Part shown: positions 880 to 11,444 of the stretch, one piece after another
How the letters are laid out: each line of letters begins with the position of its first letter
How positions within the stretch are numbered: position 1 is the first letter of the stretch
From: Marmoricola sp.
GTDB taxonomy: Bacteria; Actinomycetota; Actinomycetes; Propionibacteriales; Nocardioidaceae
NCBI RefSeq assembly: GCF_025965085.1
Contig: NZ_JAOPXP010000089.1
Coordinates: 1-42,162 of the forward strand
Length of the DNA stretch: 42,162 nucleotides
Direction: 5' to 3'
Position numbers and translations under genes: made by a program
Notes under the pieces: generated by a model
Databases searched by the model: none
Told to the model about the DNA's origin: nothing
Seen by the model: only the letters and a program-made list of their open reading frames with translations

Positions 880-1263
880 TCAGGCCGTGACCGGCGCGTT
901 GACGTCCTCGGGCAGGTTCGCCTTCGCGGTCTCGACGAGGGCGACGAAGGCGGGCGCGTCGTTGACGGCCATGTCGGCCAGGATCTTCCGGTCGACCTCG
1001 ACACCGGCTGCCTTGAGGCCCTGGATGAAGCGGTTGTAGGTCAGGCCGTTGGCGCGGGCACCGGCGTTGATGCGCTGGATCCACAGCTTGCGGAAGTCAC
1101 CCTTGCGCTTCTTGCGGTCGTTGTAGCTGTAGACCAGCGAGTGGGTGACCTGCTCCTTGGCCTTGCGGTAGAGGCGCGAGCGCTGGCCCCGGTAACCGGA
1201 GGCGCGCTCGAGGACGACCCGGCGCTTCTTGTGGGCGTTTACTGCCCGCTTGACGCGTGCCAT
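880..1263 (-). CDS. rplT: 50S ribosomal protein L20
   Basis: 127 aa [38 protein letters not shown]..., typical L20. Confidence 0.98.
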
Positions 1264-1352: not shown

Positions 1353-1547
1353 TTACAGGCCGAGCAGCCTCTTCGCGCGGGGAACGTCGGCCTTGGCGAC
1401 CTCGGCGGTGCCCGACATCCGGCGAGTGACCTTCGAGGACTTCTTCTCGAGGTTGTGGCGCAGACCGGTCTTCTGGCGACGGATCTTGCCCGTGCCGGTC
1501 ACGCGGAAGCGCTTCTTGGCACCGGAGTGCGTCTTGTTCTTCGGCAT
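1353..1547 (-). CDS. rpmI: 50S ribosomal protein L35
   Basis: 64 aa [39 protein letters not shown]..., between infC and rplT. Confidence 0.98.
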
Positions 1548-1568: not shown

Positions 1569-2246
1569 TTACGCTTCGATCTCGGGGTCGAGGTTCTCGG
1601 AGCGGCCGCGCTCCTTCTTCGGCGAGGGAACCGGGTGCGCCGCCTTGAGCTCGGCACGCTCCGCCTCGCGCTCGGCCTCACGGTCTGCAGCGCGCTGGTC
1701 CCGCTCGGCCTTCACCTCGGCCTTGGCCTCGGACTTCTTCTTGTGCGGCCCGATCACCATGGTCATGTTGCGGCCGTCCTGCTTGGGCGAGGACTCGACG
1801 AAGCCCAGATCCGTGACGTCCTCGGCGAGGCGCTGCAGCAGCCGGTAGCCCAGCTCGGGGCGGTGCTGCTCGCGTCCGCGGAACATGATCGTGATCTTGA
1901 CCTTGTCGCCCGAGCGGAGGAACCGCACGACGTGACCCTTCTTGGTCTCGTAGTCGTGCTGGTCGATCTTCGGCCGGAGCTTCATTTCCTTGATGACCGT
2001 GTTGGTCTGGTTGCGGCGGGCTTCACGGGCCTTCTGGGCGTTCTCGTACTTGAACTTGCCGTAGTCCATGAGCTTGCAGACCGGGGGTCGGCCCATCGGC
2101 GCGATCTCGACGAGGTCGAGGTCCGCCTCTTGGGCAAGCCGCAGCGCGTCGCTCGTGGAGACGATGCCGACGGTTTCGCCATTGGGTCCAACGAGCCGGA
2201 CTTCCGGGACCCGGATCCGATCGTTGATTCGCAGCTCGGTGCTGAT
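1569..2246 (-). CDS. infC: translation initiation factor IF-3; likely ATC start at 2246 (ATG alternatives at 2270 and 2318)
   Basis: [68 protein letters not shown]... is IF-3. AGGAGG (2256-2251) sits 4 nt before ATC (2246-2244), at the point where IF-3 homology begins. Confidence 0.93.
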
Positions 2247-2319
2247 GTGTCCTCCTGGGGTGGTCTTCATGGTCAACCCTGGGAGAACAAGTCCGGCGGC
2301 GCATTTCTGCCCCGGCATG

Positions 2320-2351
2320 AAAAACGGCTCCCGGCGCGACGCGCGGGAGCC
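2320..2351 (-). terminator. Rho-independent terminator/attenuator in the infC leader
   Basis: Minus strand GGCTCCCG-CGCGTCGCGC-CGGGAGCC-GTTTTTC: 8-bp perfect stem plus inner GCG/CGC pairing, followed by five U, upstream of infC in the same orientation. Confidence 0.75.
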
Positions 2352-2390
2352 TCAGTCGTCGAGTTGGTACGACGGCATGCGTCGCGCCAC
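2352..2390 (-). promoter_or_regulatory. putative leader ORF (GTG...TGA, 12 codons) overlapping an antiterminator arm
   Basis: GTG GCG CGA CGC ATG CCG TCG TAC CAA CTC GAC GAC TGA ends immediately before the terminator stem. GGCGCGACGC (2388-2379) is perfectly complementary to GCGTCGCGCC (2342-2333) inside the terminator. Confidence 0.45.
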
Positions 2391-2532
2391 TCTTCGACCT
2401 GACCCGACGACCTGGTGGAGCAACGGTCGATGCGGGTGGGAGGAGGCCTCCGCTTGTCGGACCAGCCACACCCTCACGGGCACCACTGATCGGTCACGCA
2501 CAAGGGTACAAGGCATCCGCCCGCAATGCACA

Positions 2533-11194: not shown

Positions 11195-11272
11195 CGTCCG
11201 TCCTCACTGGTCCTCAGCGGGCCCTGGGGACGGGACGGCTCACGACATCGCGTCGCGGACGGCCTGCGTGCG

Positions 11273-11390
11273 CCTTCCCATCCGGACTTTGACCGTCGGT
11301 CCAGGAGTTCCACCTGGTCAACCGGCCCCATGTGGGCGGCCGGGTCGCGGACTGTCACCGCCGGTGCGGAGTTCCACCGCCCCCAGAGCA
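11273..11390 (-). promoter_or_regulatory. FMN (RFN) riboswitch
   Basis: Minus strand CTCTGGGGGCGGTGGAACTCCGCACCGGCGGTGACAGTCCGCGACCCGGCC...CCAGGTGGAACTCCTGGACCGACGGTCAAAGTCCGGATGGGAAGG matches the RFN consensus; directly upstream of ribD. Confidence 0.95.
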
Positions 11391-11444
11391 CGCGAGTTCT
11401 CACTCGTCACTCCAAGTCTGCCACAGGGCCTCCCTGCCCGCCCG

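Follow-up and report, generated by a model that had tools for sequence, protein, structure and literature searches.

The window, as we call the whole stretch of 42,162 nucleotides of Marmoricola sp. analyzed here (contig NZ_JAOPXP010000089.1), carries an operon in the order infC-rpmI-rplT, with an SseB-domain gene upstream that ends at 2533. The features of the operon and its leader are as follows.

880..1263, minus: rplT (L20, the proposed ligand), last gene of the operon
1353..1547, minus: rpmI (L35)
1569..2246, minus: infC (IF3; Pfam IF3_N and IF3_C)
2251..2256, minus: conserved Shine-Dalgarno AGGAGG of infC
2319..2351, minus: intrinsic terminator GGCTCCCG-CGCGTCGCGC-CGGGAGCC-GTTTTTC, folding at -20.2 kcal/mol
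2343..2351, minus: 3' strand of the predicted antiterminator, identical to the terminator 5' arm
2352..2390, minus: 12-codon ORF, GTG GCG CGA CGC ATG CCG TCG TAC CAA CTC GAC GAC TGA, judged to lie outside the mechanism
2402..2437, minus: P3 hairpin, ACCCG (2437-2433) with CGGGU (2406-2402); inner helix CGACC/GGUCG
2402..2456, minus: conserved core AAG-nGGAG...CUCC-C-ACC...GGGU; covariance model R1, 57.5 bits, E 1.2e-11
2439..2451, minus: P2 hairpin GGAGG-CCU-CCUCC, whose 5' strand doubles as an antiterminator strand
2445..2453, minus: 5' strand of the predicted antiterminator, part of AAG and P2
2454..2455, minus: invariant AA dimer, first half of the L20-binding signature
2460..2491, minus: P1 hairpin, GATCAG (2491-2486) with CTGGTC (2465-2460)
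2492..2495, minus: GACC, 5' strand of the putative P0, which with GGTC (2399-2396) closes the leader domain
2319..2495, minus: sub-threshold match to RF02830, Scr1601 (Streptomyces RNA 1601); 18.2 bits, E 0.097, model 1-209
2503..2508, minus: -10-like element TACCCT; most leaders have TANNNT upstream of GACC

infC most likely starts at the ATC codon at 2246-2244, behind AGGAGG. ATC, rarely ATT or ATA, occupies the same start position in nearly all Actinomycetes sampled, and an ATC start has been stated for Streptomyces infC (PMC5472188). Starts called at ATG 2318 or 2270 would be wrong if ATC 2246 is used. The non-canonical codon fits IF3 controlling its own start codon, and IF3 probably adds a second control here, of a known kind. 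A predicted hairpin at 2289-2250, CUCCCAGG with CCCCAGGAG, would cover the infC Shine-Dalgarno, and congeners seem to have comparable hairpins directly upstream of AGGAGG. Elsewhere in the window lies an FMN riboswitch (11266-11395, minus; RF00050, 87.9 bits).

A folded leader domain before infC

From the position of the -10-like element, transcription would start at about 2495-2498. The segment 2495-2396 contains a compact conserved fold, P0-P3, just upstream of a hypervariable segment, and nearly every congener reads, in order, GACC, P1, AAG-nGGAGGCCUCCUCC (P2), CACCCGCAUCGACC...GGUCGUCGGGU (P3), and GGUC. The GTG directly after the -10-like element also opens a 49-codon frame (2501-2352, minus) that spans the entire leader and closes at TGA 2352; it may be read as leaderless.

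Sequence comparison shows P2 to be a genuine helix. In 40 sequences from across the phylum, 98.9% of its cells are paired (shuffles, 78.5%), the closing pair, G-C in 25 of them and A-U in the other 15, has no exception, and four of the five pairs show compensatory changes on both sides; the signal is lost when the partner strand is slid as a control. The pairing agrees in the CM-fitted alignment A2 (99 sequences), although alignments fitted in this way favor the structure they are built on. The AA dimer before P2 is invariant in alignments A1 (66 sequences) and A3 (40, phylum-wide). In P3, the outer A-U, C-G, and C-G pairs are invariant in 99 of 99 sequences, and C2436-G2403 and C2435-G2404 form two invariant consecutive G-C pairs. 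MAFFT misaligned the inner P3 helix, and to this we attribute a weak alifold result and the low pairing of that helix in A2 (only 70.6%). In family f4 (L120, L121, L108, L116, and L117), P3 opens with ACCG...CGGU rather than ACCCG...CGGGU, a lineage-specific variant.

For P1, the automatic finder settled on another helix in roughly half of the leaders, and we therefore relied on visual inspection of the genus sequences; congeners carry GATCAG/CTGATC, GACTGG/CCAGTC, GATTGT/GCAATC, and GATCGG/CCGATC. P0 is proposed from illustrative swaps only: the GACC/GGUC pairing also occurs in RF02830, GGCC/GGCC and GATC/GATC replace it in some families, and a 5-mer swap test was not significant.

A terminator and a predicted alternative pairing

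The terminator consists of GGCTCCCG (2351-2344), the loop CGCGTCGCGC (2343-2334), CGGGAGCC (2333-2326), and GTTTTTC (2325-2319), and terminator-like hairpins occur in 140 of 153 infC leaders. A simple promoter/terminator scan listed neither the leader promoter nor the infC-leader terminator; its loop limit (3-8) probably excluded the 10-nt loop found here.

The terminator 5' arm is predicted to have a second partner far upstream. Positions 2453-2445 and 2351-2343 form eight pairs with one mismatch (computed at -15.2 kcal/mol), an antiterminator that would exclude both P2 and the terminator. It is predicted for each of the 23 leaders of the genus, window included. For all 23, a transcript ending with the terminator 5' arm is computed to favor the antiterminator over the P2 state (by 6.3 kcal/mol on average), and the complete leader to favor P2 with the terminator over the antiterminator (by 5.4 kcal/mol on average). 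Across the phylum-wide leaders, RNAduplex of P2 against the whole downstream region gave a present but diluted signal, and the terminator-arm test was therefore used instead. The best duplex of P2 (5' strand and loop) falls in the terminator 5' arm or loop in 77 of 140 leaders (21.1 expected by length), with a mean z of -1.46 compared to -0.07 for the 3'-arm control and about 0 for control duplexes with P3 or upstream sequence. Families f3 (Streptomyces) and f4 give a weak signal in this automatic test.

Comparative pairing and computed energies together make the infC leader a well-supported candidate transcription attenuator. In this respect the original prediction, which placed an attenuator before infC, stands with its intrinsic terminator and a mutually exclusive structure, but the partner of the terminator differs: the antiterminator 5' strand lies about 100 nt further upstream, at 2453-2445, in place of the arm then proposed (2388-2379).

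Distribution across Actinomycetota and relation to Rfam families

We sampled the 23 genus leaders and the infC upstream regions of 120 further genomes across the phylum. The search pattern AAG-nGGA...UCC-C-ACC...GGU recovers the core in 133 of 143 leaders, R1 adds three and RF00558 one, and the core thus precedes infC in 137 of the 141 readable leaders (L037 and L131 are incomplete). R1, which was trained on Actinomycetes, finds one strong place in the genome of the window, 2402-2456 (next match, E 0.026), and matches before infC at E<=1e-4 in 41 of 43 named genomes, among them Nocardioides, Kribbella, Aeromicrobium, Streptomyces, Saccharopolyspora, Streptosporangium, and Actinomadura.

Two Rfam families bear on this element. 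The window match to RF02830 is full length and stops exactly at the terminator, which leaves 73 nt to the ATC start, but at its score it does not reach the gathering cut-off of 100 bits, which only Streptomyces passes; two congeners score 33.1 bits (L019) and 30.2 bits (L018). In Streptomyces, the match exceeds the cut-off; in six of six genomes it is located 84-88 nt upstream of infC. Scr1601, in Rfam a small-RNA gene, is the Streptomyces infC leader (L084, 148-373, minus). The scr1601 RNA was catalogued as a small RNA with expression confirmed in S. coelicolor, and its S. ambofaciens homolog is located in a UTR (PMC8388888).

The second family is RF00558, the L20_leader. The window does not match this model (gathering cut-off, 58.7 bits), yet it has the arrangement that defines the family: a 5' leader of infC-rpmI-rplT; AAG, hairpin, [A/G]CC, hairpin, and GG, with the AA dimer and two G-C pairs; and a 3' Rho-independent terminator with a computed alternative antiterminator. 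Early-branching actinobacterial classes do match RF00558 directly before infC. Across 198 genomes, 42 match at E<=0.01, one of them over the Rfam cut-off (58.7 bits). In the early-branching leaders the sequence is AAG-n-AGAAGC...GCUUCU-C-ACC...GGU, and the terminator that comes next has a 5' arm again complementary to P2. As a detector of RF00558-type leaders R1 fails, barely scoring them and giving a single weak match. In place of a single model, intermediates (L132, L137, and L144; L137 is detected by both models) and the core they have in common link the two types.

The L20 leader structure of B. subtilis has been described as narrowly distributed, in Firmicutes (PMC6097659), or as occurring in Firmicutes and Thermotogales, with a suggestion to re-examine other lineages (PMC3766115); a limited literature search returned no paper placing it in actinobacteria. 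The actinobacterial leader looks like a diverged, phylum-wide relative of this Firmicutes/Thermotogales switch. This corrects the original prediction on one point, as it had held that other phyla regulate the operon by different leaders; the leader here looks to be of the same kind as that of Firmicutes. Common descent of the R1-type and RF00558-type leaders is likely, as opposed to convergence on an L20 site. We lean towards a broader scenario in which the L20 leader is ancient and was inherited, not re-invented, by Firmicutes, Thermotogae, and all Actinomycetota; in Actinomycetes it would have diverged beyond the existing model and gained P0 and P1, and Scr1601 would be its terminated product.

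L20 as the proposed ligand

Leaders that bind L20 have a published signature, an AA dimer with two consecutive G-C pairs (PMC7247131), to which the invariant AA (2455-2454) and C2436-G2403 and C2435-G2404 correspond. In B. subtilis, L20 stabilizes the terminator in the infC-rpmI-rplT leader (PMC10931766, PMC6097659). By this resemblance and by analogy, L20 would be the ligand of the actinobacterial leader, and the direction of the response, with L20 leading to termination, would be the same. Our literature search found neither L20 binding, termination, or reporter data in any actinobacterium nor a paper linking infC to Term-seq data. We consider it quite probable that the infC leader is an attenuator of the L20-leader kind that controls infC-rpmI-rplT by the B. 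subtilis mechanism.

Under this proposal, RNA polymerase would first make the folded domain P0-P3. Without ligand, the emerging terminator 5' arm (2351-2343) would pair with AAG and the P2 5' strand (2453-2445), and this antiterminator would let the polymerase continue into infC-rpmI-rplT. When L20 is in excess over 23S rRNA, it would bind P2/P3 at the AA dimer and the CC/GG pairs; P2 would then stay closed, the antiterminator would be blocked, and the terminator would form, ending transcription at about 2319.

Three other accounts were weighed against this proposal. The original prediction paired GGCGCGACGC (2388-2379) with GCGTCGCGCC (2342-2333), its exact reverse complement, and had a ribosome on the 12-codon ORF (2390-2352) control that pairing. 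A reading of the sequence bears out the terminator at 2351-2319, the 10-nt complement, and the ORF in letters and coordinates, and within this genome the complement is above chance (0 of 200 linker shuffles reach 10 nt; mean, 5.5), with a duplex energy of z = -1.8 only. Conservation in relatives tells against both elements, which are private to this genome when compared with 22 congeners. The longest such complement in those congeners is 3-7 nt, and the duplex (mean z, +0.36) is no better than shuffled; over the 23 genus leaders, the long complement exists in the window only, and the competing helix is absent in every relative tested. The ORF is absent from both nearest relatives (IF3 98-100% identical), recurs with the same stop in only one of the 22 congeners, and lacks a run of control codons. 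Moreover, it forms the end of a 59-codon open frame from GTG 2531, which makes its start codon arbitrary, and the segment between P3 and the terminator that holds both ORF and 10-nt arm is hypervariable in the genus alignment. Control by a ribosome or leader peptide at this pairing is accordingly very hard to sustain, and we regard it as the least probable of the accounts.

The remaining two retain the terminator. If the same attenuator responded to IF3, L35, or another factor, the operon itself would offer candidates, as it encodes both proteins; the invariant positions nevertheless fit the L20 signature and the Firmicutes L20 leader model detects the early-branching members, so we judge a ligand other than L20 unlikely. 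More doubtful still is a constitutive terminator whose leader is stable, or a small RNA acting in trans, with no regulated antitermination. The catalogued and expressed scr1601 of S. coelicolor speaks for it, but the linkage of the element to infC is phylum-wide, the alternative pairing is conserved, and the S. ambofaciens homolog sits in a UTR. The L20-responsive attenuator remains the reading we prefer.

On that reading, the leader is a candidate regulator of an essential operon (IF3, L35, and L20) throughout Actinomycetota, a phylum for which few intrinsic terminators have been predicted (PMC2965389). The range of the L20 leader would extend to a third phylum, and an Rfam "small RNA" family, Scr1601, would be explained as an attenuated leader. 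If it is true that the leader was inherited and did not converge, it would be an unusually old RNA switch.

Finally, the proposed switch can be set beside known systems. Leader-peptide attenuators such as those of trp and his likewise have mutually exclusive terminator and antiterminator structures, but here there is no conserved ORF; we considered this class and set it aside because a short ORF overlapping the switch is not conserved in the congeners. RF02830 is filed as a small-RNA gene of Streptomyces only, and the papers that our search returned draw no link between it and L20. The L20 sites of E. coli rpmI-rplT share the ligand logic and the signature of AA dimer and two G-C pairs (PMC7247131), but control there is translational, through a pseudoknot and a hairpin and without a terminator (PMC10931766). 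The closest likeness is to RF00558 of B. subtilis, which serves the same operon and has AAG just 5' of a hairpin, C-A/G-CC, a second hairpin closed by CC/GG, and a terminator. Relative to it, the Actinomycetes leaders, among them the one in the window, have nGGAG/CUCC instead of AGAAGC/GCUUCU in P2, are GC-rich, and add P1 and P0, and these differences place them below detection by the RF00558 model.
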